DNA of 64,000 bases from the NCBI GenBank assembly GCA_036655895.1, contig JAVVPF010000001.1:62001-126000 (forward strand), given 5' to 3'. Positions 952-8,676 of the stretch are shown here, piece by piece. The notes beneath the pieces were generated by a model that worked only from the letters and a program-made list of their open reading frames with translations, did not search any database and was not told where the DNA came from. This DNA is from Cloacibacillus sp. Lineage in GTDB: Bacteria; Synergistota; Synergistia; Synergistales; Synergistaceae. Position 1 is the stretch's first letter, and every line of letters starts with the position of its first letter. The position numbers and the translations under genes are program-made.

Positions 952-2340
952 TTAATCCTTGTTTCCCAGCTCTCTCACTATTCTGTCCATGTCTATGCCG
1001 GCCTTTTGCGGCTCTGGCATTTCGACTTTTTTGATGTCGTAATAGGAGAGGAGGCGGCCTACCGAAGTGAGATAGTCCGCCTTCATTGAGGAAAGGTTAT
1101 AGAGAGCGTTGACATAAGCCAGCTCCGATTGAAAGGACTCGTTTTCAGCGTCGAGGACGTCGAGCAGCGTGCGTCTGCCGGCCTCGAACTGTTTGACATA
1201 GGCTGTGCGCATTACCTGCGCCGCCTTTTTATGTTCCTCAAGGTTCGGGATCTGAAGTTCGATATTTTTCACGTCGTTATACGCTATCAGCACGGCCTGT
1301 CTGACGTCGCGCTCTATTTTTTTGAATACCTCTTCGGATTCCTGATACTGTTCCTCGGACTTTTTTATATTGGCTTTGTCTATGCCGCCGTTGTAGAGGT
1401 TGTAGCGGAACATGAGCTCCACCCATGATTTATCGCGGCGTCCCTTGTTGCCGTCTGTGTCGTGATCGAGATTCACTCCGGCGCGGAAATCAAGCTTCGG
1501 CCTCATGCGCGACGCCTGCTCCTGTATGGCGTGCCGCATTGAATTGGTGTTTTCTTTGTACGACGCGACCTGCGGGTTGCCGGTCAGCGCCTCTGTCACG
1601 CAGGCCTCTGGCTGCTCGGGCAGAGTCACTTCGATGACGGCCTCTTCCATCTGCTCTGCCGGCTCTATTCCCGTGACGCGCACATACTGCGTTATTGTGT
1701 CGTGCAGGTTGCTCTCCTCCGTCAGGCAGTTGACCTTTGCGAGCGCCAGACGTCCCATCGCGGTCTCAAGGTTGACCTTGCTGTCTACTCCGGCGATGGC
1801 TCTCTTTTTGACCTTTGCCAGCAGTTCTTCGTGGCGCGCGACGTTGTTTCTGGCCATAGCGACCGCCTTGCGGTATCTGATGACGTCCTGATGACAGCGG
1901 AAGCCGGCGTAGGCCACCTCTTCAAGCTTTGCCGAAAGGTCGAAGTAGCGCATGTTTTTAGCGTATTCGTAGCGCCGCACCTGGCTGCGCGTCAGATTGC
2001 CGTCGTAGATCGGCTGGGTGAGGATGAGCGAAGCGCCGTCTCTTGTATAGTCGAAAAGGTCGCTCCCGTTGTATCCCTCGCCGTCGAGGTTCTCTCTTCC
2101 GATGCCGGCGTAGGCGTCCAGCTTCGGCCTGTATCCGCCGAAGGCGGCCTGCCAGTCCCGCAGCGAGGCTCTAAAGGCGTGAAGCTTCGCCTGCGCCTCG
2201 GGATTTGTATCAACGGCCCTCTGTATAGATTCCTGCACGGAAAGGCCTTCCGCGGCGGCCGGAGCGGGGCAGCTCAGAACAAGAGCGGCGGCGCTAAAAA
2301 CGCCCAAGAACAACGCAATTTTTTTCACAGTGACAAACAT
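952..2340 (-). CDS. TolC-family outer membrane protein of a type I secretion system
   Basis: A 462-residue protein with a clear signal peptide (hydrophobic core about residues 7-25, then PAPAAAE) and the two-fold coiled-coil repeat pattern of TolC/OEP proteins, for example GLSVQESIQRAVDTNPE at the mature N-terminus and the second-repeat motif VQAFEAGRRTLLDVLDAE-like segment near residue 390. It would form the outer-membrane exit duct for the adjacent LapB-like ATPase. The start is supported by a GGGAGTG ribosome site 8 bases upstream. It is the first gene of a leftward operon; the region upstream (2341-2855) is shared with the divergent diguanylate cyclase gene. The length is normal for the type I secretion TolC subfamily. 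Confidence 0.85.
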   Translation of the reverse strand: MFVTVKKIALFLGVFSAAALVLSCPAPAAAEGLSVQESIQRAVDTNPEAQAKLHAFRASLRDWQAAFGGYRPKLDAYAGIGRENLDGEGYNGSDLFDYTRDGASLILTQPIYDGNLTRSQVRRYEYAKNMRYFDLSAKLEEVAYAGFRCHQDVIRYRKAVAMARNNVARHEELLAKVKKRAIAGVDSKVNLETAMGRLALAKVNCLTEESNLHDTITQYVRVTGIEPAEQMEEAVIEVTLPEQPEACVTEALTGNPQVASYKENTNSMRHAIQEQASRMRPKLDFRAGVNLDHDTDGNKGRRDKSWVELMFRYNLYNGGIDKANIKKSEEQYQESEEVFKKIERDVRQAVLIAYNDVKNIELQIPNLEEHKKAAQVMRTAYVKQFEAGRRTLLDVLDAENESFQSELAYVNALYNLSSMKADYLTSVGRLLSYYDIKKVEMPEPQKAGIDMDRIVRELGNKD

Positions 2341-2855
2341 ACGGCAACACTCCCACAGAATTAAATAGCACTATATAGATGCGGCGACGCCTCTAGCGGC
2401 GGCACCAAAATAACGTCTCGCGTAACGAGACATAAAAGACAATATAAACAACACTTCGCAGCGAACTGGGCAGATAACAAAAAAACAATGCCGCCACAGC
2501 CGCGCTGTGTCAGGGATACAATATGGGGTTTTTGGGGGGAAGGGCCGTCCTTATGAGGACTCCCTTAATTCAAACAACAGTTAAGCCTAACTATAACTAT
2601 CGTTAGTAAGGAAGTATATCACTTTAGGCACTGATAAACAAGATGATGTCTATAAAATAAATGTTATTTTATGTTCTGACGCACAGAAAACACGTTGTTT
2701 TTTAACTTAGGCGTCACCGACGCGCGCGAATGAAGTGCACGAAACTGATACGGATAAAATGAAGGATATTTTTTACAATTTTGCGCAAACAGTATATAAA
2801 AAACTAATTTATATGCTAAAATACCTGAAACATAAATTTACGGGGAGTGAAAATA
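2341..2855. other. AT-rich divergent intergenic region with hairpins
   Basis: No gene is seen in these 515 bases, which separate the leftward secretion operon from the rightward cyclase gene. Two stem-loops stand out: GTCTCG/CGAGAC at 2415-2431, in the leader of the secretion operon, and a longer one at 2540-2566 (AAGGG, GTCCT / AGGAC, CCCTT). CTAAC and GTTAG around 2589-2607 form a loose dyad that could be a protein site. GGGGAGTG at 2842-2849 is the ribosome site for the cyclase gene. I did not recognise a known c-di-GMP riboswitch fold. Confidence 0.4.
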
Positions 2856-4040
2856 TTGGAGAACAATAGCGTCAACGCGGTCTATGATTATGATGATTCG
2901 ATACTGAGACTGCCGTGCGCTATTGCCGTCGTCGCCATCGAACGCGGCGGCCCCGCGCTGCGCTCTGTAAGCGACGGCTTCTGCCGTATGTTTGGCTTGC
3001 CCAGGGACGCGATATTCGCGGCCTGTAAAACAGATTTTTTTGCGCTGCTGCATCCCAACGATAAAGAGGCCATCCGAAAAAAATTTACCCTGCACTGCCG
3101 CGCAAGGGAAGATTTCAGTATGCAGCACCGGATACTGGACGGGCGCGGCCGCTGCGTATGGCTTTTGGTGAGCGCTCAGATCCTCCCAAATGCTGACGGC
3201 GCGGTCTATTTTGTCAACTTCGCCGACATAACGTCCGACAAAGAGCAAGAGGACTCCACGCTGATGACCCAGAAAAAATACCGCACGGCGCTTCAAAAGG
3301 CGGAGGTAGATATCTGGGACTATGACATGGAGCATCGCAGCGTCACAAGAAAAAGTTATACGCAGGACGGCTCCTGCGTTGACAAAGTGATATGCGACGT
3401 GCCGGAATCCGTAATAGGATATGGGTGGGTTCATCCCGACAGCATCGAAAAATATCGAGGCCTCTACGCGAGGCTGCACCTCGGCGAAAAAGAGCCGTTT
3501 GTCGACATATTGGGTAAAAACGATGGAGGCGCCGGCTTGGAGTGGCGCTGGAAACGGCTCAGATACATGACCGTATCTGACGGCGGCCCTGTAAAGCACG
3601 CGATAGGCGTTGGGCTGGACATCACGGAGCAAAAGGCAGCGGAGGATCGCTTTCAGAGCGAACTTGCCTATCGCGAAGAAATGTTCAAGGATAAAAATAT
3701 CATGTCGATGAGGCTCAACCTTACGGCAGACGTCATAGAGCACGCCTCGCAGCAGTATCAGCCGATACTTAAAGGCAATTACAGCTACGACAACTTCATC
3801 AGCAACGTCATATCCAGTTCTATTCCCGAAGAGACGCAGAGAGAGCGTTTTATCGAGACCTTCGCCAGAGAAAATCTCCTTAACTCCTACAACGCGGGGG
3901 GGGGGGGGGGTATCCTCTCTTATTCAGTGCGAATATCAGAGATTCATGCCGGACGGCACGCTGAAATGGGTGACGACGGTCATCAAAATACTTACAAAAC
4001 CGTACACCAACGAGGTCATCGCGTTTACCACGACCGCTGA
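2856..4040 (+). CDS. PAS-type sensor part of a split diguanylate cyclase (out of frame with its GGDEF domain)
   Basis: This frame encodes two PAS-like sensory units (about residues 15-130 and 140-270, the second ending GVGLDITEQKAAEDR, a typical PAC end) and the start of a third domain (LLNSYNAG). It then enters a run of 15 G and continues out of frame for some 45 nonsense residues to a stop. The downstream frame picks up exactly the expected continuation (CEYQRFMPDGTLKWV), so this and the next entry are one gene in which loss of one G, or gain of two, restores a protein of about 715 residues. TTG at 2856 is preferred over GTG at 2847 because GGGGAGTG overlaps the GTG and lies 6 bases before the TTG. 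No transmembrane segment is seen, so the product is cytoplasmic. Confidence 0.75.
   Translation: MENNSVNAVYDYDDSILRLPCAIAVVAIERGGPALRSVSDGFCRMFGLPRDAIFAACKTDFFALLHPNDKEAIRKKFTLHCRAREDFSMQHRILDGRGRCVWLLVSAQILPNADGAVYFVNFADITSDKEQEDSTLMTQKKYRTALQKAEVDIWDYDMEHRSVTRKSYTQDGSCVDKVICDVPESVIGYGWVHPDSIEKYRGLYARLHLGEKEPFVDILGKNDGGAGLEWRWKRLRYMTVSDGGPVKHAIGVGLDITEQKAAEDRFQSELAYREEMFKDKNIMSMRLNLTADVIEHASQQYQPILKGNYSYDNFISNVISSSIPEETQRERFIETFARENLLNSYNAGGGGGILSYSVRISEIHAGRHAEMGDDGHQNTYKTVHQRGHRVYHDR
3896..3910 (+). repeat. Run of 15 G inside a coding sequence (putative phase-variation tract)
   Basis: Fifteen consecutive G on the coding strand, encoding Gly residues just after NA. Homopolymer runs of this length slip during replication and are the classic basis of on/off contingency genes. 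With 15 G the gene is off; 14 or 17 G would join the PAS frame to the GGDEF frame. It is by far the longest G run in the window. A miscounted homopolymer in the assembly would look the same. Confidence 0.85.
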
Positions 4041-5001
4041 CACAGACATGGAACATATCTCAAAGGAACTTCTTGAGAACGTGGCAAGCCATGATTATGA
4101 CTATGTGATATATCTTGACGCTAAAAACAACAGCTACCGCATGTTCGCCTCAGACAGCAAAAACACCCCGCTGCCGCCGCAAATATGTTATGACTACGAA
4201 AGCGCGCTGAAAGTCCACGCCTACAAGTACGTGATACCTGAAGACATTGAATATACCATCCAGTGTATGCTGCTGAAAAACCTCTTTGAACAGCTTGAAA
4301 AGAACGACGTCTACGAATTCACCGTGAGCTCGGTAGAAAAAGACGGCTCCGTGCGCATGAAAAAGGTCAAATATTCCTACCTCGACAAGAAAAACAAGAT
4401 AATGATCTTAAGCCGCACGGACGTCACCGATCTGTACCACCAGCTTCAGGAATACAACAAACTTAGGGAGCTGGCAAACAGAGACAGCCTGACCGGGCTT
4501 TACAACAAGAACTATTTTTACGCGAACCTTGCGCGTGAGGTCGGCACACCGGACGCCAAATGGATATTCTTCATCGACCTTGACGATTTCAAACGCGTGA
4601 ACGACAAACTTGGACATTTGATGGGCGACAGGATCATCAGGGGCGTTGCCAATATACTGCGCGGAATATTCGGCGAAGAGGCCGTCGTTGGACGCTTCGG
4701 CGGCGACGAGTTTTTCGTCCTCCTAAAAAATGTTTCAGAGAGGATCGTCAGAGAACGCGCGGAAGAAATTTGCAGCAGCCTGTGCTTCCGCTACGACAAT
4801 AACGCAAAACGCGTTGAAGTCCACGCAAGCGTCGGGGTATTCATGTTCAGCGAAAAAATGGAGGTCGAAGAGGTAATGCACTGCGCCGACGAGGCGCTCT
4901 ACCACGCCAAGGCCGAAGGAAAATCAAAATACGTCCTTTATCACGAAATAACGAACCACGTCCCAATAGGGAACGCCCCGCGCCTCTCCAGAGGACAATA
5001 A
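3946..5001 (+). CDS. GGDEF diguanylate cyclase domain, second half of the split gene
   Basis: The first ATG in this frame is internal to a PAS-like fold: codons from the G run onward give VSSLIQCEYQRF before MPDGTLKWV, so the ATG at 3946 is probably not a natural start. Residues about 185-345 form a complete GGDEF domain: DSLTGLYNKN, DLDDFKRVND for metal and GTP binding, and an intact GGDEF signature within GRFGGDEFF. No RxxD inhibitory site precedes it at the usual distance. The domain makes cyclic di-GMP from two GTP. Whether it is translated alone at 15 G is unclear, since no good ribosome site precedes 3946. The neighbouring LapB/TolC exporter is of a type often tied to c-di-GMP control of adhesion. 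Confidence 0.8.
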   Translation: MPDGTLKWVTTVIKILTKPYTNEVIAFTTTADTDMEHISKELLENVASHDYDYVIYLDAKNNSYRMFASDSKNTPLPPQICYDYESALKVHAYKYVIPEDIEYTIQCMLLKNLFEQLEKNDVYEFTVSSVEKDGSVRMKKVKYSYLDKKNKIMILSRTDVTDLYHQLQEYNKLRELANRDSLTGLYNKNYFYANLAREVGTPDAKWIFFIDLDDFKRVNDKLGHLMGDRIIRGVANILRGIFGEEAVVGRFGGDEFFVLLKNVSERIVRERAEEICSSLCFRYDNNAKRVEVHASVGVFMFSEKMEVEEVMHCADEALYHAKAEGKSKYVLYHEITNHVPIGNAPRLSRGQ

Positions 5002-5256: not shown

Positions 5257-6705
5257 GTGATAAAAAAGTTTTTTTCGATAAATTTAATAATTTCCGTCAT
5301 TATTATAAGCGGCTTTCTGTTGTCGGGACTGTCGTCGTTTTTTTCGTTCCAGGAGCTTTTTAAAAAGGATATAGAGGCCGTCTCGGAGCTGACTTCCGAG
5401 AATATTTTTGTAAATATAAACAATCTGATGGACAGACCCATCAATGTCTCTACCGCCATGGCGCACGATACGTTCCTTCGCGACTTTGTCAAGAAGGAGC
5501 AGCCGGGAGGGCTTTCACGGGAGCATCTGCTGGAGATGAAGGATTATCTGGCCTCGTACCAGAAGAAGTATAATTTCGATTCTGTCTTTTTCATTTCCAC
5601 AAAGACGCACGCCTATTATCATTATAAAAACGGGCTGGACCGCCTGATGGGCAAGGGCAACCCGGAAAATATCTGGTATTACGCTTTTTTGAATGATCCC
5701 GCGGAAGTTTCTCTGAACGTGGACAATGACGAGTCGAAGAACGACGTTATTACGATTTTCGTCAATTATAAGCTCTACGACGAGGAGAAAAATCTGCTGG
5801 GCGTGGTGGGCGTCGGTATGGAGACGCCTTACATCCAGAAATTTTTGATGGAGAATGAAAACAAGTTCGGGGTGCACGCCTATCTGATAGACGCGGCGGG
5901 GAACGTGCAGCTTTCGTCGACGATTACGGAGTTTGAGGGCGTCAATCTTTTTAAAGACAAGGTGTACGCGCCTATGGCGGCGGCGATAAATACGCTCGGG
6001 GCTGGGAGCGATCATCGATGGTATCACACGAAGCAGTCTGACGGGTATATTATCACGCGCTATGTGCCCAATCTGAACTGGTATCTGGTAGTTGAGAAGA
6101 GCACGATGGAATTCCAGAGGAAGATGCTTACACAGTTTGCGGTGAGCCTTGCGTTTATGCTTTTCGTCATCTTGGTGGTCATAGGGATAACGACTGGGCT
6201 TATTAAAAAGTACAGCCTGAAGCTCTCGCATCTTGCTGAGATGGACCAGCTGACCGGCATAAAGAACCGCAGGAGTTATGAGAGCGAAACTGCGGCTTTT
6301 GCGGCGCATTTGGATAAGTTTAAAAGTTTTGGCATCGGTGTGCTGGACCTGAATAATCTAAAGGCGACGAACGACCTGTACGGCCATCAGGCGGGGGACG
6401 AATATCTTAAGATTTTTGCAGAGCTGCTTTGCGAGACTTTCCGCGGCTGTCCCGTTTACAGGATAGGCGGAGACGAGTTCGCGGTGGTTTTCCGCGATGT
6501 GCCGGAAGAGACGGTGCGAAGCGACTGGGACGCTCTGCGTCGCAGGATAGAAGTCATTAAGAGCGAGCAGGGACATTCTATAAGCGCGGCTTTTGGATAC
6601 GCTTTCTGGGACGCAAGCGGCCTTGATACGATAGAAAAGGTCTTTAAAGAGGCCGACGACAGGATGTATCTTCACAAGAAACAGATACGCGGCGAGGCGA
6701 AATAG
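5257..6705 (+). CDS. Membrane-bound diguanylate cyclase with extracytoplasmic sensor (dCache-like) and GGDEF domain
   Basis: A 482-residue protein with a first transmembrane helix at about residues 8-28, an extracytoplasmic region of about 260 residues resembling dCache sensor domains (YYALDD-like segment and VGVGMETPY), a second helix near 287-312, and a C-terminal GGDEF domain (DQLTGIKNRRS; DLNNLKATNDLYGHQAGDEYL; YRIGGDEF intact). It should sense an external ligand and make cyclic di-GMP. The GTG start follows AAGGGGTAGG. A TATAAT at 5161-5166 is a possible -10. It lies 255 bases after the split cyclase, so it probably has its own promoter. No RxxD inhibitory site is evident. Confidence 0.88.
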   Translation: MIKKFFSINLIISVIIISGFLLSGLSSFFSFQELFKKDIEAVSELTSENIFVNINNLMDRPINVSTAMAHDTFLRDFVKKEQPGGLSREHLLEMKDYLASYQKKYNFDSVFFISTKTHAYYHYKNGLDRLMGKGNPENIWYYAFLNDPAEVSLNVDNDESKNDVITIFVNYKLYDEEKNLLGVVGVGMETPYIQKFLMENENKFGVHAYLIDAAGNVQLSSTITEFEGVNLFKDKVYAPMAAAINTLGAGSDHRWYHTKQSDGYIITRYVPNLNWYLVVEKSTMEFQRKMLTQFAVSLAFMLFVILVVIGITTGLIKKYSLKLSHLAEMDQLTGIKNRRSYESETAAFAAHLDKFKSFGIGVLDLNNLKATNDLYGHQAGDEYLKIFAELLCETFRGCPVYRIGGDEFAVVFRDVPEETVRSDWDALRRRIEVIKSEQGHSISAAFGYAFWDASGLDTIEKVFKEADDRMYLHKKQIRGEAK

Positions 6706-7061: not shown

Positions 7062-7331
7062 TCATTCGTAATGTTCCCACAGGCTCAGTATCTTGACTGT
7101 TCGCTCCTTGGCGTAGACCTGATAGACAAGCCTGTGCTGGATGTTGATACGCCGTGAATAGCCGCCTTTAAGGTCGCCCACCAGCTTCTCGTAGGGCGGA
7201 TAAGGTTCAAATGGATCATGCTTCAATAAAGCGATAAGCTCTGATATTTTTTCACCGTACCCCGCCGCTGTCGCGGTCCTCTTGTCTTTTAGCCCTTGCT
7301 TAGTGTAGAGGATTTTCCAGGGCTCATTCAT
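7062..7331 (-). CDS. yoeB: YoeB/Txe-family mRNA interferase toxin
   Basis: An 89-residue protein of the RelE/YoeB fold. The family core is present: EKLVGDLKG, SRRINIQHRLVYQV and the C-terminal LWEHYE with the His expected at the active site. YoeB toxins cleave mRNA at ribosomes and are held inactive by a YefM-type antitoxin, encoded just upstream here. The ATG at 7329-7331 lies within the last codons of the antitoxin gene (ATGAATGA overlap). A longer frame begins upstream, but the overlapping start is typical of these operons and gives the normal toxin length. Confidence 0.88.
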   Translation of the reverse strand: MNEPWKILYTKQGLKDKRTATAAGYGEKISELIALLKHDPFEPYPPYEKLVGDLKGGYSRRINIQHRLVYQVYAKERTVKILSLWEHYE

Positions 7332-7584
7332 CGTCAGGGTCTTCCACGCACTCTTCAAGAGGAGTCTTCAAGCCTTCTATCAGCTTTTCTCTCATGCCCG
7401 GAATAGATAAAAGGAAGAGGGTTTCGTTTATTGCTTTATAGTCGCTCTCTGACAGCATGACGACGTTGCCTTTTTTTGTTGTGATGTACGCCGGTTCCTG
7501 CGTAGCTATAACATCGTCTATCACACTATAAAGATTCTGGCGTGCGTTGGTTGCGTTTAAGATCAAAAAATCATCCCCTTTCAC
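7324..7584 (-). CDS. yefM: YefM/Phd-family antitoxin
   Basis: An 86-residue protein with the Phd/YefM N-terminal DNA-binding fold (NATNARQNLYSVIDDV, then AYITTKKGNVVMLSESDY) and an acidic C-terminus ending EDPDDE that should wrap around the toxin. It neutralises YoeB and represses its own operon. The gene overlaps the toxin start by 8 bases. A perfect dyad of the YefM operator type lies just upstream. The pair sits beside an insertion element, so it may be mobile cargo. Confidence 0.88.
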   Translation of the reverse strand: MKGDDFLILNATNARQNLYSVIDDVIATQEPAYITTKKGNVVMLSESDYKAINETLFLLSIPGMREKLIEGLKTPLEECVEDPDDE

Positions 7585-7759: not shown

Positions 7760-8676
7760 ATGAAGAAGTTAACACAGGATGTCAAGTTTAGGCAAGCACT
7801 GATTTTAACGCTCAAAAGCACGGAGTAACAAAGGCCGCTATACGCTATAAGACTAACAGGCAATACGTTTACCGGTGGAAAGGAAGGTACGACGGCACAT
7901 CTGAATCTCTAAGAGACAGGTCGAGCCGCCCCAGACATCACCCAAACGAGCATCAGGAGTCTGAATTGAAACTGATAAACGACATGTACAGACGGAATCA
8001 ACAATGCGGCCTTGTGGTCAAGCTGAGAAATCGCGGATACTCAAGAAGCATCTCTGCACTTTATCGTGTTCTGAGGAAAAGGGGACTGACAAGGAACAAA
8101 CCGGAGAATCCGAAATATATACCTAAGCCTTATCAAACTATGACGCATCCTGGAGAACGTATTCAGATAGACGTTAAATGCGTGCCAGCGGTATGTATGG
8201 CGACTGGCGTGTCTGACAAAAAGTTCTTCCAATATACGGCCATAGACGAGTGTACGAGGTTCCGGTATTTGGAGGGTTTTGATGAACAGAGCCAGTATAA
8301 TTCATCCGTTTTTATAAGTCATCTTATAAAGCGCTTCAAGTTCAGGATAGAGTGCGTACAGACGGACAACGGTGTTGAGTTCACTAACAGATTCACTTCA
8401 GACAAAGACAAGCAGAGCTTGTTTGATAAGACGCTTGAGGCCTTCGGCATAACCCACAAGCTGATAAAGCCCTTTACTCCGCGTCATAATGGCAAGGTAG
8501 AAAGATCTCATCGCAAGGACAATGAATATTTTTATGCAACGCATAAGTTTTACTCTTTAAGTGACTTTAATAAACAGCTGGCTGTCCACTGTGGTAAATA
8601 CAATAACTTCCCGATGAGACCTCTTAAATGGAAATCTCCACGGGAAAGCTTAAAAGCTTTTTTGGTTGCCGTGTAA
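7760..8676 (+). pseudogene. IS481-family transposase, frameshifted near its N-terminus
   Basis: The gene starts at the ATG at 7760 (MKKLTQDVKFRQALI) but the frame closes at a TAA 22 codons later. The expected continuation (AQKHGVTKAAIRYK, then the helix-turn-helix segment NRQYVYRWKGRYDG) is in the next frame from about 7801 and runs unbroken to 8676. The integrase core is complete: Asp in IQIDVKC, Asp in VQTDNGVEF and Glu in GKVERSHRKDNE. A net loss of one base, for example a 4-base deletion near 7800, explains the break. No standard slippery heptamer is at the junction, so programmed frameshifting is unlikely. A shortened product from the ATG/TTG near 7966 would lack the DNA-binding domain. 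Confidence 0.75.

Follow-up and report, generated by a model that had tools for sequence, protein, structure and literature searches.

What does a run of fifteen G residues do in the middle of a bacterial sensor gene, at the very point where a frame encoding PAS domains gives out and a GGDEF domain continues in another frame? Such a locus could be a switch, a sequencing error or a gene at the outset of decay. The enzyme concerned would make c-di-GMP, the bacterial "settle down" signal. We examined this Cloacibacillus locus within a window of 64,000 nucleotides (64 kb), the whole stretch of DNA analysed here, together with the rest of the genome and related genomes. The gene is probably a diguanylate cyclase rendered phase variable by slipped-strand mispairing and assembled in its OFF state.

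A single gene interrupted at the tract

The features of the locus and its immediate neighbors are as follows.

952..2340, minus strand: neighboring gene for a TolC/OEP outer-membrane exporter, heading a type I secretion cluster (Pfam)
2842..2847, plus strand: Shine-Dalgarno-like GGGGAG, 8 nt before TTG 2856 (direct reading)
2856..4040, plus strand: OFF product, with TTG start, PAS-PAS and a ~42-residue out-of-frame tail past the tract, ~394 aa in total (ORF reading)
2964..3215, plus strand: PAS_3 domain (Pfam, E 4e-11)
3896..3910, plus strand: 15-G homopolymer, proposed slipped-strand switch, frame restored at 3k+2 G (11, 14, 17) (frame re-reading, run statistics)
3910..5001, plus strand: +1 frame past the tract, with what remains of the PAS-like segment, one more such segment and GGDEF (ORF, codon score, paralogue)
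4474..4926, plus strand: GGDEF domain (Pfam PF00990, E 9e-37)
5257..6705, plus strand: neighboring dCache-GGDEF gene, separate, intact and tract-free (ORF, Pfam)

With 15 G, the frame entered at 2847 or 2856, of which TTG 2856 is the best start, stops at 4040, before the GGDEF domain. A codon-usage score trained on the 29 other genes of the window and applied in 90-nt steps was best for the first frame in each step before the tract and for the +1 frame in each step after it. Coding potential thus changes frame exactly where a sequence-only reading had placed the loss of GGDEF from the PAS frame. GC3 is 65.3% before the tract and 65.5% after it (66.1% in the 29 other genes), and neither half contains a stop, a second frameshift or a lost key motif. 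The two halves flanking the tract are intact and free of decay, in line with the earlier remark on their good preservation.

An unbroken paralogue of 872 aa is encoded on contig 41 of the same genome. Its residues 186-525 match the upstream half (33% identity) and its residues 529-872 the downstream half (49% identity), which leaves three paralogue residues, RGD, between the aligned parts; the paralogue DNA has no run longer than 6, at this place or elsewhere. Since the halves align end to end with this protein, only a three-residue loop is absent. These alignments are the strongest support for the view that the locus represents one ancestral gene, specifying a multi-PAS sensor diguanylate cyclase, that appears split exactly at the tract. 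Pfam support for the third PAS-like segment is weak (E 0.19), and placement of the tract in the glycine loop of a PAS domain therefore relies on the paralogue alignment.

Tract length and its predicted effect

Direct reading of the plus strand gave exactly 15 G at 3896-3910, the number first reported, as a homopolymer inside the coding frame. This is the sole G or C run of at least 7 in the window, all others being 6 or shorter. A first-order model built on the G-to-G and C-to-C frequencies of the window itself predicts ~2e-5 runs of at least 15 per window and ~1e-3 per 2.9-Mb genome, which puts this tract inside an ORF far above chance length. The whole genome has eight G/C runs of at least 8; those of at least 11 are the 15-G tract, a 36-G run (contig 4), a 13-C run (contig 23) and an 11-G run (contig 27). 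All glycines of the tract are specified by GGG, which accounts for 9.6% of Gly codons in the 29 other window genes and never occurs there as a GGG GGG pair. The exclusive use of a codon that is minor and never doubled elsewhere marks the 15-G run as a DNA-level feature that fits expansion by slippage; the tract is more than a mere glycine linker. Contingency tracts mostly sit near the gene start, and the mid-gene position of this one was counted against its assignment to that class. The length of 15 is that of a draft assembly of 160 contigs, a kind of assembly in which homopolymer length is uncertain.

When the frames were re-read with altered tract lengths, a single long protein emerged only at 5, 8, 11, 14, 17 or 20 G. 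With 14 G it comprises 717 codons from GTG 2847 or 714 from TTG 2856, and the proposal that 14 or 17 G would yield one protein is borne out, with ~714 aa at 3k+2 lengths. Changes in length therefore restore or break one long frame, which is contiguous in the paralogue. In the proposed mechanism, the reading frame would pass through the G tract in the glycine loop of a PAS-like domain, and the tract would gain or lose G residues by slipped-strand mispairing during replication. Lengths of 11, 14 or 17 G would give the whole ~714-aa enzyme including GGDEF (ON), and 15 or 16 G would lead to a stop within ~20-45 codons and a PAS-only stub devoid of cyclase (OFF), the state predicted for the assembled length of 15. 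Tract length presumably varies in the population.

The downstream half carries what a diguanylate cyclase requires, i.e., a GGDEF domain, also recognized by TIGR00254 (E 4e-35), in whose translation both the signature RFGGDEF and the metal-binding motif FIDLDDF are intact. Inspection of this domain by eye revealed no RxxD inhibitory (product-inhibition) site. The domain is predicted to be active, and c-di-GMP levels would then change with tract length. We also considered whether the GGDEF frame could be translated on its own in the OFF state, which is unlikely because ATG 3946, its candidate start, has no ribosome site before it and lies within the frame being translated. A promoter scan returned sites no more numerous than in shuffles.

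Companion tracts in the genome and in relatives

The 11-G run on contig 27 (40737-40747; L040 3238-3248) lies in a GLUG/Big_2 surface-protein gene, 24 codons past an ATG with a good ribosome site (TTGGAGGAATAACGATG) and just before the signal sequence. A tract of 9 or 12 G would keep the frame open, which the assembled 11 closes. At the matching place, a contig 3 paralogue carries a short GGAGGA and is in frame. As judged from these frames, this gene is a putative second contingency-type locus, likewise assembled OFF. The switch count omits the intergenic tracts on contigs 23 and 26. That of contig 23, the 13-C run (L010 1957-1969), separates folD from a CGGC-domain-like gene, has a hairpin next to it and is possibly a promoter-type tract. 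The 36 G of contig 4 (L009 2270-2413) are followed by an N block and a poly-A run; this run was rejected as a switch locus since it adjoins the N gap, and such a scar means that this draft does contain homopolymer artefacts.

G/C runs of at least 11 were found in 24 of the 60 relatives searched, the genome under study included. Poly-C runs of 11-12 occur in homologous GLUG-type surface genes from two further genera of the family, three in genome G020 and one in G013 (L074, L086, L088 and L089), placed after the start and ahead of the signal sequence as in the contig 27 gene. Three of these four genes match the Synerg-CTERM model, and two are in frame and two out. Further tracts in relatives split or lie in MBOAT, acyltransferase-3, family-2 glycosyltransferase and AlgX-like genes. 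The family-specific proteins met in these comparisons point to a Synergistaceae host. Such surface and glycan genes are classical phase-variation targets. Loci of the same type are thus found elsewhere in the lineage, on contig 27 and in relatives, each read from a single assembly, and poly-G/C switches of this type accordingly seem to be in use in the lineage. Among its tract genes, the present one is unusual in specifying a signaling enzyme. With slightly less assurance than for the switch itself, we favor the view that a c-di-GMP synthase is here a simple-sequence contingency gene in its own right, within a so-far undescribed Synergistota poly-G/C set that takes in Synerg-CTERM proteins, acyltransferases and glycosyltransferases.

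Some relatives are richer in tracts: G046 and G054 have 8 and 14 runs of at least 11 (L111-L127) and G016 has 9 (L091-L096), many of them within or beside glycan and surface genes. Going by these positions, the three genomes probably hold larger phase-variable gene sets. The complete relative genome G028 contains a repeated intergenic element with a run of 10-11 G and near-identical flanks, GTAATGT... and CGCTCCTAGGTA (L076 2743-2752 and 3712-3722; L078 3667-3677). The tract gene itself, its genus being represented by this genome only, had no orthologue in 52 family genomes beyond its own paralogues and no match in viral contigs, and a scan of GTDB contigs returned one weak, distant match.

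Alternative explanations

Homopolymers this long are hard to call. The dominant tract might truly have 14 (or 17) G, with the gene ON and the break a sequencing or assembly error, as could happen in a draft of 160 contigs with a poly-G/N scar on contig 4. We deem this unlikely. The join across the tract is right, since both halves match one paralogue, and the 11-G surface gene on contig 27 is likewise off-frame. Moreover, a run of 14 G is about equally improbable and slip-prone, and such a correction would alter the state, not the mechanism: were the true length 14, the gene would be ON and the switch kept. An early pseudogene, in which chance expansion broke the gene permanently and decay has yet to come, has a marginally smaller chance of being right. 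The 30 GGDEF domains of the genome could make the loss of one cheap, and the 52 family genomes provide no orthologue to support selection on the gene. Against this stand the absence of any stop, second frameshift or lost motif and the intact codon bias on both sides. A plain frameshift, furthermore, needs no fifteen identical bases, and similar tracts recur in unrelated surface genes of this genome and its relatives.

The third alternative leaves the DNA unchanged and has the polymerase (or the ribosome) slip on the G run to generate a fixed mix of short and full-length products. Homopolymers of at least 8 can cause transcriptional slippage (PMC3711429), and the downstream frame has been kept intact. 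Known transcriptional sites are, however, usually A or T runs (PMC3711429), and fifteen G go far beyond what RNA slippage needs and would be expected to be unstable as DNA. We regard this explanation as very improbable. A slipped-strand switch at the DNA level is thus the reading we retain.

Genomic context and possible output

The secretion cluster next to the tract gene is divergent from it. Downstream of TolC and on the same strand follow LssB-type ABC, HlyD and VCBS adhesin genes, which run past the left end of the window, so the adhesin-type exporter noted in the sequence-only reading does adjoin the cyclase, on the opposite strand and with a giant adhesin in its cluster. This VCBS/tandem-95 adhesin lies left of the window start (contig 1; L011 1-4326), and by eye its N terminus looks like LapA-type retention modules. 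Pseudomonas adhesins of such a type answer to c-di-GMP via LapD and LapG. A search for the LapG protease (PF06035) gave no match in the genome and a match in a control genome; LapG-mediated adhesin control was set aside on this ground. Adjacency by itself is no proof that the cyclase controls the adhesin. The genome encodes 30 GGDEF and 11 EAL domains, and the effect of the switch may therefore be local or signal specific. Because LapG was not found and 30 GGDEF domains are present, the population split into attached and free cells originally envisaged is an outcome that we infer and that the switch might have. Elsewhere in the window, a YoeB-like toxin and a Phd/YefM antitoxin (7062-7584) are located beside an IS integrase-core fragment (7966-8673).

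Comparison with known systems

Homopolymer contingency loci are well known, and most of them act on surface proteins, glycan enzymes or restriction genes. With the poly-G/C loci of Neisseria, Campylobacter, Helicobacter and Bordetella (e.g., PMC5084427, PMC2823697, PMC1891110) the present locus has in common a G/C run within a coding frame, on/off states set by length modulo 3 and a truncated OFF product. It departs from them in its target, a sensor cyclase, in its mid-gene tract and in its host of the Synergistaceae type. The poly-A tract of Listeria inlA, where slippage was measured at ~1000-fold over point mutation (PMC2831843), is also a homopolymer within a coding gene but differs in being poly-A and in lying at the internalin gene's 5' end.

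Phase variation is already known to reach c-di-GMP by other routes. The C. difficile phosphodiesterase genes pdcB/pdcC are phase variable through promoter inversion by site-specific recombination (PMC9286219; reviewed in PMC11868660). Clostridioides difficile thereby offers the precedent of a c-di-GMP turnover gene that switches reversibly and at random, which leads to population heterogeneity; the present gene differs in being a cyclase with a homopolymer within its reading frame. The phosphodiesterase of the E. coli sfa operon, subject to an epigenetic operon switch (Zlatkov et al., as described in PMC11868660), is, on that description, another case in which phase variation extends to c-di-GMP, again through a phosphodiesterase and not through a cyclase with a coding homopolymer. 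A review of c-di-GMP evolution, where it treats phase variation, mentions nothing beyond point mutations and the phosphodiesterase of C. difficile (PMC10333796). According to a 2025 review, the link between phase variation and c-di-GMP signaling is a novel insight, and its cases are phosphodiesterases controlled by inversion or epigenetics (PMC11868660). The literature searched, where subscription journals are largely absent, yielded no report of a repeat-switched diguanylate cyclase (GGDEF) or of repeat-based phase variation in Synergistota. If our reading is true, homopolymer phase variation would extend to the phylum Synergistota, and a single slip could shift many traits together. A coding homopolymer would then join promoter inversion and epigenetic switching as a third mechanism of c-di-GMP phase variation, acting on the opposite arm, synthesis.
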